IMG/VR virus record: IMGVR_UViG_3300006916_000207
Coordinates: 1-31,260 of that record
DNA: 31,260 nt
Direction: 5' to 3' (one strand)
Source: a virus
A program made the position numbers and the translations under genes. The notes under the pieces were generated by a model, which was not told where the DNA came from, ran no database searches, and worked only from the letters and a program-made list of their open reading frames with translations. Below, piece by piece: positions 7,945 through 23,804 of this stretch; the stretch's first letter is position 1, and every line of letters begins with the position of its first letter.

Positions 7945-7993
7945 TAACTAATTATTTTATAGGAGGATTCTATTATATTTATTTATTTTGTAT

Positions 7994-8021
7994 TTGCAAA
8001 TAAATAATAAATCAATATAGT
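7994..8021 (+). promoter_or_regulatory. Sigma70-like promoter TTGCAA-16-TATAGT
   Basis: TTGCAA, 16 bases, TATAGT, about 50 bases upstream of the gene at 8071 and just after the lysis terminator. Nearly the same pair (TTGCAT-16-TATAGT) precedes the portal gene at 23809, suggesting a common late or middle promoter class. The RNA 5' region holds ACATG and CATGT, which can pair. Confidence 0.5.
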
Positions 8022-8070
8022 ATATATTACTACATGTCTGTCTAAATTCATGTCATAAAAATTTATTTTT

Positions 8071-8505
8071 ATGGAAAAACCCTCTCTGATTATTGCTATT
8101 AGTTTAGGGTTTTTTATTTTGTCTTTTAGATTTCATGAGTATAATAATGTTGCACGACAAATTCCTTTTTATTATTTAAATTATAAGGTTATGTCACATA
8201 TATTACAACAAGAAGATAATATCACTATATTAGGTGATATTTATGAGTATCCAATATACAAATGAGATACTGAAGAAGTAAAAGAAAAAAGAACTGCTAT
8301 ACATTTACAAATAATTATAGTAGTGAATGGTAAACAGAAAATATTTAGAACAAATTATGATGTAAACGTTAAAGATAAATGATTAGTTGATTATGAATCA
8401 TGGTATAATTTATCACAATTCTTAGAGTCTATATGATATAATGTAGGCTTTGATATGCACAATCAGATAGAACAAATGATAGAACATAAAGAAATAGAAT
8501 TATAA
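8071..8505 (+). CDS. Membrane-anchored hypothetical protein
   Basis: 144 residues with an N-terminal hydrophobic anchor (about 5-20) after a short MEKPS start, then a soluble alpha/beta domain with strands such as HLQIIIVVNGKQKIFRT and a helical end. The topology suggests one anchor with the domain on the outer face. It is a single-gene transcription unit: promoter at 7994-8021 and terminator at 8509-8540. A lone promoter-gene-terminator cassette between modules is typical of a phage accessory gene such as superinfection exclusion, but that is only inference. Confidence 0.65.
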
Positions 8506-8508
8506 AAG

Positions 8509-8540
8509 AAAAACCATAAAGTCGTGCTTATGGTTTTATT
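8509..8540 (+). terminator. Rho-independent terminator
   Basis: AAACCATAA pairs perfectly with TTATGGTTT around the eight-base loop AGTCGTGC. The stem can be extended by A-T pairs at its base, and an AT-rich tail follows. It closes the single-gene unit 8071-8505. Confidence 0.75.
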
Positions 8541-8558
8541 ATTAAATACAATATAAAT

Positions 8559-8587
8559 TTGCAAATCTTAGTAAAGAAGAGTAGAAT
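8559..8587 (+). promoter_or_regulatory. Possible promoter TTGCAA-17-TAGAAT
   Basis: TTGCAA and TAGAAT with 17-base spacing directly after the terminator. The downstream leader contains a run of ten Ts (about 8601-8610), unusual for a transcribed leader, so this may be weak or non-functional. Confidence 0.3.
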
Positions 8588-8636
8588 ATTTATTTATTTC
8601 TTTTTTTTTTCTTTACACAATCTCTACATTAAACTA

Positions 8637-8664
8637 TTGACTTATACTAACCAATACATATACA
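8637..8664 (+). promoter_or_regulatory. Promoter TTGACT-16-TATACA
   Basis: Near-consensus boxes, 29 bases upstream of the small ORF at 8693. One of several closely spaced promoters between 7.99 and 9.6 kb. Confidence 0.45.
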
Positions 8665-8692
8665 CTATACTTGTTACTATTAACAATATATT

Positions 8693-8779
8693 ATGAAGAA
8701 ACATAATAAACATAACTGTATAAAGAAGATATCTAAACATAAAAAGATAGAAAGATATAATAAGATAAGAAACTTTTAA
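8693..8779 (+). CDS. 28-residue basic peptide
   Basis: MKKHNKHNCIKKISKHKK and a Lys/Arg/Tyr-rich remainder. It is the only ORF with a usual T-ATG start in the 8506-9361 stretch. Promoter boxes lie just upstream at 8637. It could be a small regulatory peptide or a leader peptide for the RNA genes that follow. Being short and Lys-rich in an AT-rich region, it may also be spurious. Confidence 0.35.
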   Translation: MKKHNKHNCIKKISKHKKIERYNKIRNF

Positions 8780-8786
8780 AAAAGAT

Positions 8787-8814
8787 TTGACAAGATTAGA
8801 AATATAGATAATAT
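8787..8814 (+). promoter_or_regulatory. Strong promoter TTGACA-16-TAATAT driving a small RNA
   Basis: Consensus -35 TTGACA, 16-base spacing and TAATAT. The predicted start is at about 8821, exactly where a 15-bp hairpin followed by a terminator begins, with no ORF between. Confidence 0.65.
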
Positions 8815-8820
8815 AGCCTT

Positions 8821-8914
8821 GTACACAAATTACATCTATCTACAAATAAAGCAACTTGCCTAATAATAGGTGTAGTTTGTAAAAAGACATTGAAGTAGAT
8901 AGCAATGTCTTTTT
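8821..8914 (+). ncRNA. Compact ~94-nt small RNA: 15-bp hairpin plus terminator
   Basis: Bases 8825-8839 pair with 8866-8880 in 15 consecutive pairs, two of them G-T: ACAAATTACATCTAT with ATAGGTGTAGTTTGT. The 26-base loop is single-stranded and A-rich, containing GCAACTTGC. The stem abuts directly on a 12-bp terminator hairpin. A consensus promoter lies seven bases upstream. Promoter, structured body and terminator with no ORF make a free-standing regulatory RNA likely. It lacks a tRNA cloverleaf or a TpsiC-like arm. The exposed loop would be the natural target-binding part. Confidence 0.65.
8881..8914 (+). terminator. Terminator of the small RNA
   Basis: AAAAAGACATTG pairs with CAATGTCTTTTT, 12 perfect base pairs, loop AAGTAGATAG, ending in a T run. 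The next promoter's -35 box begins two bases later. Confidence 0.85.
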
Positions 8915-8915
8915 G

Positions 8916-8945
8916 TTGCCTTAATGAATGAATGTAGTATATAAT
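8916..8945 (+). promoter_or_regulatory. Promoter TTGCCT-18-TATAAT driving the large structured RNA
   Basis: TTGCCT, 18 bases, perfect TATAAT. The predicted start is near 8952, seven bases before the first hairpin of the large RNA. It follows immediately after the small-RNA terminator, so the two RNAs are separate units. Confidence 0.55.
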
Positions 8946-8951
8946 AAAAAA

Positions 8952-9330
8952 ATAGTAATCTGATGGACGAGCCTCAGACTTTAAACTTAATTAAATCATA
9001 GTTATTATTCTATACAGATTATATATTACATCTATTTATTAAAAATAGTTAAGTTGGGATATGTAGGCAACTGACTTATGCATATCATAACCGACGCTAC
9101 CATTTGGTAGGGGGGAATATAGTCAGGGTAGGCAATGAAACTCGTCTGAAAAGTAATGTACAAACTCTTTAGATTTTATTCTCTACTGCTCCTCTAAGTG
9201 TAATATTAGAAACTTAGTTTTATACTAGGGTATTTAAACAGACCTTGTTTTTCAAGTAACTTTAAATTTAATTCTACTATTAATCTTAGAGGGAATGCAG
9301 TAAATAGGATAAAATCTGAACTGAAAGTAA
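8952..9330 (+). ncRNA. Large structured RNA (~380 nt) with a G+C-rich core and probable pseudoknot
   Basis: No plausible ORF crosses this stretch. Pairings by eye: TCTGA 8959-8963 with TCAGA 8974-8978, whose loop GGACGAG (8965-8971) matches CTCGTCT at 9141-9147; CTATTT 9032-9037 with AAATAG 9043-9048; AGTTG 9052-9056 with CAACT 9068-9072; GATATG 9058-9063 with CATATC 9081-9086; CTGACT 9071-9076 with AGTCAG 9121-9126, enclosing CTACC/GGTAG at 9097-9110. A 3' domain is closed by AGATTTTAT 9171-9179 / ATAAAATCT 9309-9317, with ACTGC/GCAGT and CCTCTAAG/CTTAGAGG inside, and holds CTTG-TTTTT-CAAG. Bases 9050-9150 are much richer in G and C than the surroundings. Some pairings exclude each other. 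The class is unknown to me. It could be free-standing or a long leader of the ORF at 9362. Confidence 0.6.
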
Positions 9331-9361
9331 TATACTAATTTAGAAATTAATAGAAAAAAGT

Positions 9362-9556
9362 ATGAAAATATTTGAACAAGATAGTTATAATGATGTGTGA
9401 AAAATGGAGAAAGTAATTTTTAAAATACCCTTTATTACTATTATTAATAGTAAATGGAATGCTATCAGATGACAATATACTATTATAACACATTTACATA
9501 TATTTTGAAAGATGTTTTATATATATAAGAGAACTTATTATGAAAGTCAAAGCTAA
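9362..9556 (+). CDS. 64-residue hypothetical protein after the structured RNA
   Basis: The frame starts 31 bases after the last RNA helix and ends inside the following terminator stem. The protein is rich in Ile, Tyr, Lys and Phe with a hydrophobic stretch (KVIFKIPFITII) and a Tyr-rich basic end. No family recognised. Its placement makes it the only candidate mRNA body for the structured leader, so it may be regulated by it, or it may just lie downstream. Confidence 0.5.
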
Positions 9557-9570
9557 ATATTTGACTTTTT
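9543..9570 (+). terminator. Rho-independent terminator
   Basis: AAAGTCAAA and TTTGACTTT, a perfect 9-bp stem with loop GCTAAATA and a run of seven Ts. The stop codon of the 64-residue ORF lies in the loop. The 3' arm also supplies the -35 box of the next promoter. Confidence 0.85.
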
Positions 9571-9590
9571 TTACTAACTTATGTTATAAT
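9561..9590 (+). promoter_or_regulatory. Promoter TTGACT-18-TATAAT for the early gene block
   Basis: TTGACT lies within the terminator's 3' arm and TATAAT follows after 18 bases. It leads into the gene at 9621. Terminator and promoter are therefore interleaved, which saves space and could couple termination with re-initiation. Confidence 0.6.
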
Positions 9591-9938: not shown

Positions 9939-10628
9939 ATGATAGTATACACTAAAGAAAAAACACCTGAAACTATAAAAGAATACTTTGAGTTACTACA
10001 AAAGATGTGAGCTGATAATTACATTTGGCAACAAGACAAATTCTGATACTGTATCTTTTATAAAAAAGAGACTATAAAAAGAACTATAAAACAAATTAAT
10101 TTTGATGATACCCTCTTTTATGATAAATCTAAAGCAAGACAAGTATGTAAATTTATAGATGATCCTGTATTTAAAGAAGTTTATATAGAGTTTAGAAAGA
10201 CTAGAAAAGATAAACATAAGGATACAATGACTGAGAGAGCTGAACTTATGTTATTTAAAAAACTATGACAGAAGCATAGGCTAGTTGCTATAGATATGTT
10301 AGAAGAAGCTATAAAACATGAATGGAAGAGTATTTATGAAGATAATAAAAGAGAAGCTGATATTCTAGCTAAAGTGAGAATAGAAGAACAAAAAGAAAAA
10401 GAAAGACTAGAAGATGAGAAAAGAAAAAGAGAATCACAGGCAATTAGAGAATATAAACAAGAGATTTGAGAACTAATTAAACAAACTTGAAAAACTAAAG
10501 AATATTGGGAGGCACAGGCAAAACTAAAAATCTTATCTGAGAGAAATATAGAAGAAAGGTTTCTTTGACCTATGATACCATCTGTACTTAATAAACTAGT
10601 AAAAGAATATTTACACTTGTCAAGCTAA
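9939..10628 (+). CDS. Putative replication-initiation or replisome-organiser-like protein
   Basis: 229 residues. The N-terminal ~75 look like a small alpha/beta domain. Residues about 95-125 include RAELMLFKKLGQKHRLVAID followed by MLEEAIKHEWKSIYE. A helix with A-I-x-x-L-E-x-(S/A)-I followed by x-W-K-(S/G)-(I/L)-(Y/F) is common near the end of phage replication-organiser proteins. A strongly charged coiled coil (Glu/Lys/Arg, about 125-175) follows, then a C-terminal helical region with GPMIPSVLNKLVKEY. No DNA polymerase, helicase or primase is visible in the window, so a protein loading host replisome components is plausible. Moderate to low certainty. Confidence 0.45.
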
Positions 10629-12039: not shown

Positions 12040-13545
12040 ATGCAATTAAAAGCAAAAGAGTATTTATCTTTCAAACAAATGGAGGATACAACAAGAGAAA
12101 AACAAATAATATCTTTTATAGAAAAAAGAATAGATGATACAGCTGTTCAAGATGATATAGAACATATTATTGATTATTTAGTTTGAAGTACTCATAAAAT
12201 AGGTATAGCTCAAACTTATAAACAAACACTAGAAAAGGCTGAAAAATGGATGCAAACTCAGATTAAGAAGTGAAATAATATAGAAGAAAAGTCAGAAGAT
12301 ATAGAAGTTATTAAAGACTTTGATGATTGATTTAAAATAGTTAAATTAGTTTGAAAAAATGCCTTTGATAGAGAATGATTTCTTATGAGACATTGTGTGG
12401 CTAGCTATTATAATAGTGATACTACTATATATTCTCTTAGAGATAAGGATAATATTCCACATGCTACTTTAGAAGAATGACAACAAATTAAAGGTAAAGG
12501 AAATGGTAGTATAAATCCTAGATATGTTCATTATATAGTTTCTTTTTTAGAAGAGATTTGAATGACTGTTTGAGAAAATGAGATGAAAAATCTTTGATAC
12601 TATAAACTAGATAAAATAGATGAAGACTTAACTTGTGATGAACTATATAACTGATATGTATATGAAGATAATTTAGATAGAATTAAAGATAAAGATTGAA
12701 ATAAATATGAATGATTTTGATTATTAAATATTAAGTCATTATTTGATTTTGACTTAAATATGAAAGTAAAATTTAATTTTAATATTTCAAAGTTAACTAA
12801 TTACTTTAAAAGGTCTATAAAAAATGACAAAGGTTTAAAATCAGCAGAAGACTATGCAAAAGTATCAGCAGAAGACTATGCAAAAGTATCAGCAGAAGAC
12901 TATGCAAAAGTATCAGCAGAAGACTATGCAACAGTATCAGCAGAAGACTATGCAACAGTATCAGCAGGAAACTATGCAAAAGTATCAGCAGGAAACTATG
13001 CAAAAGTATCAGCAGGATACTATGCAAAAGTATCAGCAGGATACTCTGCAAAAGTATCAGAAGGAAACTATGCAAAAGTATCAGCAGAAGACTATGCAAC
13101 AGTATCAGCAGGATACTATGCAAAAGTATCAGCAGAAGACTATGCAAAAGTATCAGCAGGAAACTATGCAAAAGTATCAGCAGGATACTCTGCAAAAGTA
13201 TCAGCAGGAAACTATGCAAAAGTATCAGCAGGAAACTATGCAAAAGTATCAGCAGGATACTCTGCAAAAGTATCAGCAGAAGACTATGCAAAAGTATCAG
13301 CAGGAAAACAATCTATTGTATCTGTATGTAGAGAATGAGAGTTGACTAGTAATTGAGAAAACACCTTACTTGTGTGAAGAAAAGATACAAAAGCTAGAGG
13401 TAAGATATGAACTTGGTTAGTATTATGTGAAGAAGATGCAAACTATGGTATTACTAATGTACAGACAATTAGAGTTGATTGAAAAGTAATAAAAGAAGAT
13501 GTGTTTTATATATTACAAGACTGAGAATTTATAAAATGTGATTAA
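12040..13545 (+). CDS. PcfJ-like protein fused to 19 tandem octapeptide repeats
   Basis: 501 residues in three parts. Residues 1-250 contain GFLMRHCVASYYNSDTTIYS then LRDKDNIPHATLEEG and QIKGKGNGSINPRY, the signature I know from PcfJ-like proteins of plasmids and phages (function unclear; H118 and C119 conserved). Residues 268-419 are 19 copies of S-A-[EG]-[DNY]-[YS]-A-[KT]-V plus a partial copy. The last ~80 residues (LLVGRKDTKARGKIGTWLVL ... VFYILQDGEFIKCD) resemble the end domain of phage proteins with S-A-G-x-Y-S-type repeats (DUF7666, from memory). The repeats should form a regular beta-solenoid-like rod. Other frames across the repeat are open but are only artefacts of the 24-base period. 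Confidence 0.75.
12841..13305 (+). repeat. 24-bp coding tandem repeat, 19 full copies
   Basis: The unit is TCAGCAGAAGACTATGCAAA plus AGTA, with interchangeable variants in the third to seventh codons (EDY, GNY, GYY, GYS; K or T). Exact 24-base periodicity keeps the reading frame. Array variants are shuffled rather than ordered, which suggests expansion and contraction by recombination or slippage. No spacers are present, so it is not a CRISPR array. Confidence 0.95.
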
Positions 13546-14875: not shown

Positions 14876-15142
14876 ATGAAGCATAAAGCAAAGTTTCGTA
14901 ATAAAACAAAAGAAGCTATATATGAAAGAGATAATAAGTGTTGTATAATATGCTGAGTAAATATAAACTTACAATTTCATCATGTATATTTTGGTACTCA
15001 AAGTATTTATACTAAAGATAGAAATAATGTAGAAATGTGAGTAACTATTTGTGCTGATCATCATAGAGAATGTCATTCTTGTAGTAAATGACAAGGCATA
15101 AGGCAAGATTGTATTAATTATTTAGAAAAACTATGAAAATAA
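14876..15142 (+). CDS. HNH endonuclease
   Basis: 88 residues. CCIICGV supplies a zinc Cys pair, FHHVYFGTQS gives the catalytic His of the beta-beta-alpha metal motif, and ICADHHRECHS gives the later Asn/His metal ligands and closing Cys/His. Small HNH proteins like this are nicking or double-strand endonucleases; next to RusA and recombination genes it may process branched or host DNA, or be an HNH homing enzyme. It overlaps rusA by 10 bases, arguing for a resident rather than a freshly inserted gene. Confidence 0.75.
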
Positions 15143-21096: not shown

Positions 21097-21133
21097 ACCT
21101 AAATAAGTCTTAAAACTATTTTAATATACTATT

Positions 21134-21200
21134 ATCTACCTTATATGGTAGATTCTAATACATAATGGTGTTTATCTCCTTTTCATCTTATGTATTAGAA
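21134..21200 (+). promoter_or_regulatory. Two adjacent hairpins ahead of the packaging genes
   Basis: Hairpin A is ATCTACC (21134-21140), loop TTATAT, GGTAGAT (21147-21153). Hairpin B is TTCTAATACATAA (21153-21165), a perfect 13-bp partner of TTATGTATTAGAA (21188-21200), with a 22-base pyrimidine-rich loop. An AT-rich tail and a good ribosome-binding site (AAAAAGGA) follow. They could be a terminator or processing site for the early operon, a leader of the packaging operon, or a DNA element near the small terminase gene such as a packaging start. Confidence 0.55.
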
Positions 21201-21222
21201 TTTATTATATAAAAAGGATACT

Positions 21223-21969: not shown

Positions 21970-22004
21970 AGTATAACAAGTTATGATTTATCTATAAGAT
22001 ATAG

Positions 22005-22034
22005 AGTAGATTTTTTGAAAATTATCTACTTTTT
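22005..22034 (+). terminator. Rho-independent terminator after terS
   Basis: AGTAGAT pairs with ATCTACT, with further T-A pairs in the middle and a T run after the stem. It separates terS from the large terminase operon, which has its own promoter. Confidence 0.7.
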
Positions 22035-22068
22035 ATTTTAGAATAGCTTAAATTGAAGTATATAAAAA

Positions 22069-22145
22069 GTCTTGAATGTAAAACAATTATGTTTTGACAT
22101 CAAGACAAAAAGGTATAAAATAAAGGTAAGCGACTAAACTTACCT
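22069..22145 (+). promoter_or_regulatory. Hairpin, promoter TTGACA-16-TAAAAT and 5' hairpin before the large terminase operon
   Basis: GTCTTGA (22069-22075) pairs with TCAAGAC (22100-22106) across a region that also pairs (TGT/ACA, AAAC/GTTT). The -35 TTGACA (22094-22099) lies inside this inverted repeat, and the -10 TAAAAT is at 22116-22121. AGGTAAG-CGACTAAA-CTTACCT (22124-22145) then forms a 7-bp hairpin near the RNA start. An inverted repeat over the -35 box is a plausible operator for the winged-helix protein encoded next. Confidence 0.55.
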
Positions 22146-22213
22146 CTTGAAGATACTATATGCAGAATTATTTAAATGACAAATTTAATTTAATAAATCT
22201 AAAATATAAGTTT

Positions 22214-22528
22214 ATGAAAGTAAACGTAGAGTTAGATACAGAGAAGATAGCTAATGATATATGAGTATTAAAATATTGATACTTAAGTTTAATAAAAGAT
22301 ACTCTTGATTCACAAAATAGAATTACACTAGATAGAATAAATATATCAGATAGTAACAAAAGAAGTTTAGAGGCATTTTTAAAAAGAAAGTGATTTATTG
22401 GGAAATTCAAACTTAAGTGAGATAGTAAGAAAATATTATATTTCAATCCATTATATGCACACTCTTGAAAAACAATTTCTAAAGAGTTATATAATGCTTT
22501 TGATGATATTAATAATAAAGTTTACTAA
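22214..22528 (+). CDS. Winged-helix regulator (RepL-like) between the terminase genes
   Basis: 104 residues. VLKYGYLSLIKDTLDSQNRI, then ISDSNKRSLEAFLKRKGFIG and KILYFNPLYAHSGKTISKEL. The helix-helix-K-R-x-G-(F/Y)-I ... Y-F-N-P-x-Y-x-x-x-G order is that of RepL-type winged-helix proteins of plasmids and phages. It probably binds DNA and may regulate its own promoter. The frame is also open from an ATG at 22160, which would add 18 residues; I prefer 22214 because it starts with MKVNVEL. Its place between terS and terL is unusual. Confidence 0.6.
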
Positions 22529-22529
22529 C

Positions 22530-23804
22530 ATGAATGTAACAATAGATTTAAAATTTTTAAGAGATTGGCAAAAAGAATTTATAAAAAACTCAAAGCAGTA
22601 TAATGTTTTAGTTGTTCATCGTAGAGCCTGAAAAACAACTGTAGCAATAGCTAAATTACTATATGAAGCTTTAAACACAAAAGGGTATTATTGATATATA
22701 AGCCCTTTTTATCGTCAATCAAAAGCGATAGCTTGGGATATATTAAAGAAGTTTGCTAAAGCTATACCAGATACAAAGACTAATGAGAGTGAATTAATAG
22801 TTGAATTACTTAATTGAAGTAAGATAAGACTATTTGGTGCAGATAATCCTGATAGTTTAAGGTGATTAGATTTAAGATGAGTTGTATTTGATGAGTATTC
22901 ACAACAACCTGCTAATATATACTGAGAGATTGTATTTCCTATGATACTTGCTAATAATGGTTGGGTATTATGGATATGAACACCAAAATGAAAGAATAAC
23001 TTTTACAAGATATATGCTAATTGAAAGAAAGACCCTAAATATTATACACTTTTATTAAAAGCTTCCGAGAGTTGATTATTAACTAATGAACAACTAAATG
23101 AAGCAAAAAATGAAATGACAGATGAAGAATATGAACAGGAATACCAATGTAGTTTTGAAGCAGCAATTAAATGAGCATATTATACTAAAGAGATAAATAG
23201 AGCTAGAGATGAAAAGAGAATAAAAGCTTGATTATATGACCCTTTGCTTCCTGTATATACAGTATGGGATTTGGGGATAAGTGATTATATGGCAATTATA
23301 TTTGTACAAATACATTGAAATACAGTAAGAATAATAGATTGCATCCAACATAATTGAGAGTGATTTGAATTTTATGCTAGATTAATCAGAGAAAAAGAAG
23401 CAGAGAAGTGATATACAGTAGATAAATTCTTTTTTCCACATGATATAGAAGTTAGAGAACTAACTACATGAGCTTCTAGATTAGAAACAGTTAGAGATAT
23501 ATTTGGAACAAGTAGAGTTTATGTATTGCCAAAGTTATGAATAATGGATTGAATTAATGCAGCTCGTAAGATATTCCATAATGTATGGTTTGATGAAGAT
23601 AGAACAGAAGAGTTAATTGAAGCTCTAAGTTTATATAAACAAAAGTATGATGAGAAAAGAGATATATTTTTAAATACTCCAGAACATGACTGGACATCTC
23701 ATTTAGCAGATGCTTTTAGATATATGGCAATAGCTTATAATGATTTAACTCGAGTTGAACGATATGAAGAACCATTAGTTATTGACTTTTCACAACAAAT
23801 ATAA
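22530..23804 (+). CDS. terL: Large terminase subunit (ATPase and nuclease)
   Basis: 424 residues. Walker A is HRRAGKTT with G34 encoded by TGA, K35 and T36. Walker B is VVFDEYS with D121 and E122, and the coupling motif is WIGTPKGKNN near 150. The C-terminal RNase H-like nuclease has VWDLGISDYM (D247) and HDWTSHLADAFRY with the last metal Asp. It pumps DNA into proheads through the portal and cuts it to length. Length and motifs match the podophage/siphophage TerL family. It starts two bases after the winged-helix gene. Confidence 0.95.

Follow-up and report, generated by a model that had tools for sequence, protein, structure and literature searches.

A candidate structured RNA of no known family in a phage with the UGA-glycine code

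The noncoding gap and its genome

The window, i.e., the whole stretch of DNA that was analysed, comprises the 31,260 bases of the viral record IMGVR_UViG_3300006916_000207, and its main genes all lie on the + strand. The genome is compact, and its largest noncoding stretch is an A+T-rich gap of 856 nt (8506–9361) located between the late and the early genes; the runner-up measures 329 nt. The gap holds, in order on the + strand, a possible small RNA, a promoter-like site and the candidate structured RNA (8952–9345), and is followed by a short ORF. An earlier reading of the locus (the sequence-only reading) claimed that no ORF crosses the stretch, and this agrees with a longest ORF of 22 aa on the + strand and 43 aa on the − strand in 8952–9345 when code 25 is applied. 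The 43-aa frame on the − strand briefly resembles a coding match, and a search for relatives of this frame found none. AGGG stands ahead of a 20-aa ORF at 9135, which was nevertheless discounted since the phage shows no Shine-Dalgarno use: the motif is present at one of 45 gene starts, compared with a background of 7%. Many of the 45 starts carry an A/T-rich TTTAATTA or TTAACTAA some 10–20 nt upstream.

The composition of the candidate RNA departs from that of the genome. The G+C content at 9050–9149 is 44% vs. a mean of 27%, as the sequence-only reading had remarked for 9050–9150, and 0.13% of the 100-nt windows reach this level. Close by, GGGGGG (9110–9115) is the sole run of at least five G in the + strand, where no run of at least five C occurs.

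In the genes of this phage, TGA is read as glycine (code 25). The terminase gene (22398–23804) contains 19 TGA codons; when these were compared with three standard-code terminases, 35 of 55 comparisons gave glycine and 0 of 55 tryptophan. The UGA-glycine code is used by Gracilibacteria and Absconditabacteria, and because the phage employs code 25, a host from one of these two groups is suggested. The nearest terminases (about 41% identity) are from HTVC010P-type Pelagibacter phages, and at 22398–23804 the window pairs a podovirus terminase of this type with a genome where TGA is glycine. Among the phage proteins scanned, none was recognised as a polymerase, primase, or helicase.

Predicted fold of the candidate RNA

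On the + strand, the 5′ domain is predicted to contain three hairpins and two loop pseudoknots. Hairpin 1 (8959–8978) has the stem TCTGA/TCAGA and the loop TGGACGAGCC. Within this loop, GGACGAG (8965–8971) forms the 5′ side of putative pseudoknot a and can pair with CTCGTCT (9141–9147) as the 3′ side, a complementarity that had been spotted in the sequence-only reading and is confirmed here. The base of the 3′ arm described below competes for the last three bases of CTCGTCT. Hairpin 2 (9053–9091) has a 12-bp stem with one mismatch, and its loop GGCAACTGACTTA presents CTGACT (9071–9076), the 5′ side of putative pseudoknot b; the 3′ side, AGTCAG (9121–9126), follows hairpin 3 (CTACC-ATTT-GGTAG, 9097–9110). 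CTGACT/AGTCAG had earlier been proposed to close a three-way junction. Both strands are present, but since CTGACT lies in the loop of the better hairpin at 9053–9091, the pair is more plausible as a second pseudoknot than as the closing stem of a junction. In the simplest model, a forked arm would then follow two nested pseudoknots.

By nested folding, the 5′ domain is unremarkable (z −1.2), but because ordinary folding ignores pseudoknots, the domain should be judged by these instead. The joint score of two hairpins with loop partners beats 99.7% of 4000 dinucleotide shuffles, and the resulting p = 0.003 is optimistic since the test was designed after the pairs had been seen. The double-pseudoknot score at this position is the best genome-wide on the + strand, whereas the best single loop pairing alone is ordinary (p = 0.11). 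Of the mutually consistent helices claimed in the sequence-only reading, what stands is that the fold and pseudoknot statistics exceed those of shuffles and of the rest of the genome; the junction is weaker than was claimed, and alternative pairings are present in the predicted folds.

The crossing helices with a hairpin between them, together with an S-like motif, recall the core of a group I intron, and the locus could accordingly be read as a degenerate group I-like RNA in which CTGACT/AGTCAG is P7, hairpin 2 is P3, hairpin 3 is P8, and GGAATATAGTC is the S element. The succession of hairpin 2 stem, CTGACT, hairpin 3, and AGTCAG would match the order P3-P7-P8, and we take ATATAGTC to resemble the group I S element. 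However, with only a few nucleotides separating CTGACT from the stem of hairpin 2, there is no room for P4-P6, a U-G splice-site helix is lacking, as are exons and a host gene to splice, and no group I model in Rfam matches at E up to 10. Kinship with group I introns is therefore highly improbable.

The 3′ domain (9145–9344, + strand) is predicted to be a long interrupted helix of about 71 pairs that ends in a fork with two hairpins (9213–9229 and 9232–9267). The whole 391 nt have a fold z of −4.1 on the + strand and −3.0 on the − strand, and nearly all of the nested-fold signal resides in 9150–9345 (z −5.6 on + and −3.6 on −). Among 311 genome-wide windows of 200 nt, 9150–9349 ranks first on each strand, which bears out the long 3′ domain of the sequence-only reading. 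Because the 71-pair domain contains five G-U pairs and the arm no A-C mismatch when read on the + strand, and because this strand folds better, it is favoured as the RNA strand. Two more intergenic stretches of the window, 21097–21222 and 21970–22159, are also strongly folded, the first with a hairpin of more than 20 bp.

An inverted repeat of this kind may also be a DNA element, i.e., a site for packaging or recombination or the relic of an inverted duplication, with the 5′ pairs arising by chance. The arm is nearly palindromic, to the extent that the + strand model also matches the − strand at 29 bits, and the z range of the domain on the − strand (−3.6 to −7.0) overlaps that on the + strand (about −5.6 to −6.6); the weak nested folding of the 5′ domain fits as well. 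What speaks for RNA is the better folding of the + strand, where all five imperfect pairs are G-U, and the p value of the pseudoknot pair. We regard a DNA element as improbable.

Relatives and known RNA families

Only one other copy was found, in IMGVR_UViG_3300006919_012066, which is 99.8% identical over 6.2 kb. The two copies differ at 13 positions over this length and at none within the RNA, too few changes for significance. Eleven of the 13 differences cluster at 7954–8074, in an intergenic stretch and the beginning of the ORF at 8071. The RNA and nearly all early genes are missing from records with 64–68% terminase identity, among them two contigs that cover most of one genome between them, and cmsearch with models built from single sequences of the core and of the arm found no copy in these terminase relatives. 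BLAST of annotated phages and plasmids returned chance matches only. DNA-pattern scans of viral and genome contigs gave no convincing copy beyond the near-identical contig: the matches with surroundings read are coding or at gene starts, and the remaining ones resemble the RNA around the pattern alone. Weak cmsearch matches near E = 0.02 in pattern-selected loci were rejected, as they sit on coding matches. With the neighbouring proteins as bait, the same near-identical contig alone was recovered. Going by these searches, the RNA is an orphan known from two copies that are essentially identical, and cannot yet be called a class.

A search of Rfam gave nothing at gathering scores and nothing relevant up to E = 10, in keeping with the earlier claim of a class without a known family, and supports a structured RNA outside known families. 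ROOL and GOLLD are ornate RNAs of phages and prophages (PMC12286853). Like these, the candidate is phage-encoded and noncoding, with predicted loop-loop and pseudoknot pairing, and has no known protein partner; unlike these, it has a single long arm and no Rfam match. Many GOLLD members exceed 800 nt, compared with about 390 nt here, and the GOLLD model, which covers the conserved 3′ region, does not match the candidate. The ROOL model is likewise unmatched, both at gathering score and up to E = 10, and while ROOL is often located near tRNA islands, ARAGORN found neither tRNA nor tmRNA in the 31-kb window. The comparison with ROOL and GOLLD in the sequence-only reading thus holds at most for the style of the RNA, but not for the family models or the tRNA context. 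ROOL and GOLLD assemble into multimeric RNA cages.

Other families were compared in the same manner. The OLE RNA is also large and structured with a small protein gene nearby, but it is bacterial rather than phage-borne, differs in sequence and fold, and its Rfam model is unmatched here. The models of RNase P RNA and tmRNA give no match, and a tmRNA was rejected for want of a tRNA-like domain or tag frame. A HEARO or IscB-associated RNA was rejected since the Rfam model is unmatched and no IscB gene lies beside the RNA; the closest HNH gene to be recognised lies apart at 14876, as an 88-aa ORF. A retron noncoding RNA was rejected as well, since none of the proteins scanned matched a reverse transcriptase. 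Between 7.3 and 22.3 kb, a single ORF (12040–13545) exceeds 300 aa; it is PcfJ-like at the N-terminus and continues as an array of repeats of about eight residues (SAEDYAKV and variants); the array is open in several frames on both strands.

Transcription unit, neighbouring small RNA, and possible roles

The sequence-only reading assigned the RNA its own promoter, TTGCCT-18-TATAAT. This sigma70-type promoter-like site is located at 8916–8945 on the + strand, matches the consensus at ten of 12 positions, and predicts a transcription start at about 8952. Such matches are common in the genome (23 found vs. 13.6 expected), for which reason the site is only permissive. Downstream of the arm, an intact ORF of 64 aa in code 25 (9362–9556, + strand) is followed by a terminator-like hairpin read from the sequence, AAAGTCAAA-8-TTTGACTTT and then T (9543–9572, + strand), which overlaps the next promoter, TTGACT-18-TATAAT (9561–9590). 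A consensus terminator scan of the window returned zero hits and did not pick up this hairpin either. The predicted transcription unit would span from the promoter-like site to the terminator-like hairpin and include the 64-aa ORF.

Because one promoter and one terminator enclose both the RNA and the ORF, the RNA could serve the 64-aa gene as a long structured 5′ leader, which would control it in cis by riboregulation or at the level of translation. From the end of the arm at 9344 to the ATG at 9362 there are 17 nt, and the start context AATTAATAGAAAAAAGTATG is like that of other starts in the phage. On the other hand, some 400 nt is long for a leader to a 64-codon ORF, no terminator or start-hiding alternative pairing was found, and DNA with 80% A+T and two stops not infrequently contains an ORF this long by chance. 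The downstream small gene noted earlier is present as an ORF, but is weaker than was stated: it matches no family, and the annotated phage collection contains no relatives. A role as leader is a serious possibility, but on balance unlikely.

Upstream, a second promoter-like site, TTGACA-16-TAATAT (8787–8814, + strand), precedes a possible small RNA of about 95 nt (8822–8916, + strand; fold z −3.6). It would consist of a 15-bp hairpin with TTGCCTA (8856) in the loop, followed by a perfect 12-bp terminator stem (8881–8892/8903–8914) that ends in T. This TTGCCTA is the sole copy in the genome, and complements the only two TAGGCAA (9064 and 9129), both of which are in the large RNA. Judged by sequence complementarity, pairing between the small and the large RNA is a lead; a 7-base match of this kind is expected about 0.06 times by chance according to a hand estimate, and was noticed afterwards.

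This arrangement is reminiscent of ColE1, where the primer transcript RNA II is tuned by RNA I. By analogy, the large RNA, or the DNA encoding it, might act at a replication origin, with the transcript priming via an R-loop and the RNA of about 95 nt tuning it. Shared features are a structured transcript, hairpin loops, a G run, and a nearby small RNA with a complementary loop. The location in an A+T-rich gap between late and early genes would suit an origin, as would the genome's only G run of this length being inside the RNA and the exclusive TTGCCTA/TAGGCAA match; the lack of recognised replication enzymes would require that host enzymes be recruited. However, RNA I is antisense to the primer, whereas the small RNA candidate lies upstream on the same strand with seven matching bases that were spotted only afterwards, and neither an initiator gene nor a clear strand-skew switch was recognised. 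We consider an origin rather improbable. The gene at 9939 was tried as a replication initiator and rejected; searches gave no support and the structure prediction was poor (pLDDT 53).

The explanation that we favour, albeit tentatively and at somewhat short of even confidence, is that the phage makes a genuine structured RNA from 8952–9345, as part of an early unit of its own, and that this RNA acts in trans via a bound partner. Counted in its support are the largest noncoding gap, the promoter-like site, the terminator-like hairpin, the fold z, the pseudoknot p value, the G+C island, and the absence from Rfam. Weighed against it are the weakness of the 5′ domain by nested folding, the arm that also folds on the − strand, and the 64-aa ORF, which fits a leader equally well. 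Host RNA polymerase would make the RNA from its early transcription unit, and a compact 5′ domain, with the G+C-rich core, would form as the loops of two hairpins pair with strands further downstream. The folded RNA would bind one protein or RNA partner, of host or phage origin, with the 5′ domain serving as recognition surface and the long forked 3′ arm as scaffold or stabiliser. Sequence features, the lack of an ORF, the missing Rfam match, and the fold and pseudoknot statistics are seen directly; transcription, the exact pairs, action in trans, and a partner are inferred.

A bolder proposal, which we consider doubtful and still less probable than an origin or a DNA element, is that the pseudoknotted RNA of about 390 nt and a dedicated small RNA of about 95 nt, joined via TTGCCTA/TAGGCAA, represent a new phage RNA class that controls replication or early expression in code-25 phages. 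If true, this class would work through paired large and small RNAs in phages with the code of Gracilibacteria and Absconditabacteria. In the literature, we found no report of large noncoding RNAs in phages with the UGA-glycine code. If transcribed and folded as predicted, the candidate would be a large noncoding RNA in such a phage, and would offer an example, open to testing, of how RNA might take the place of protein in a small phage where no replication enzymes are recognised.
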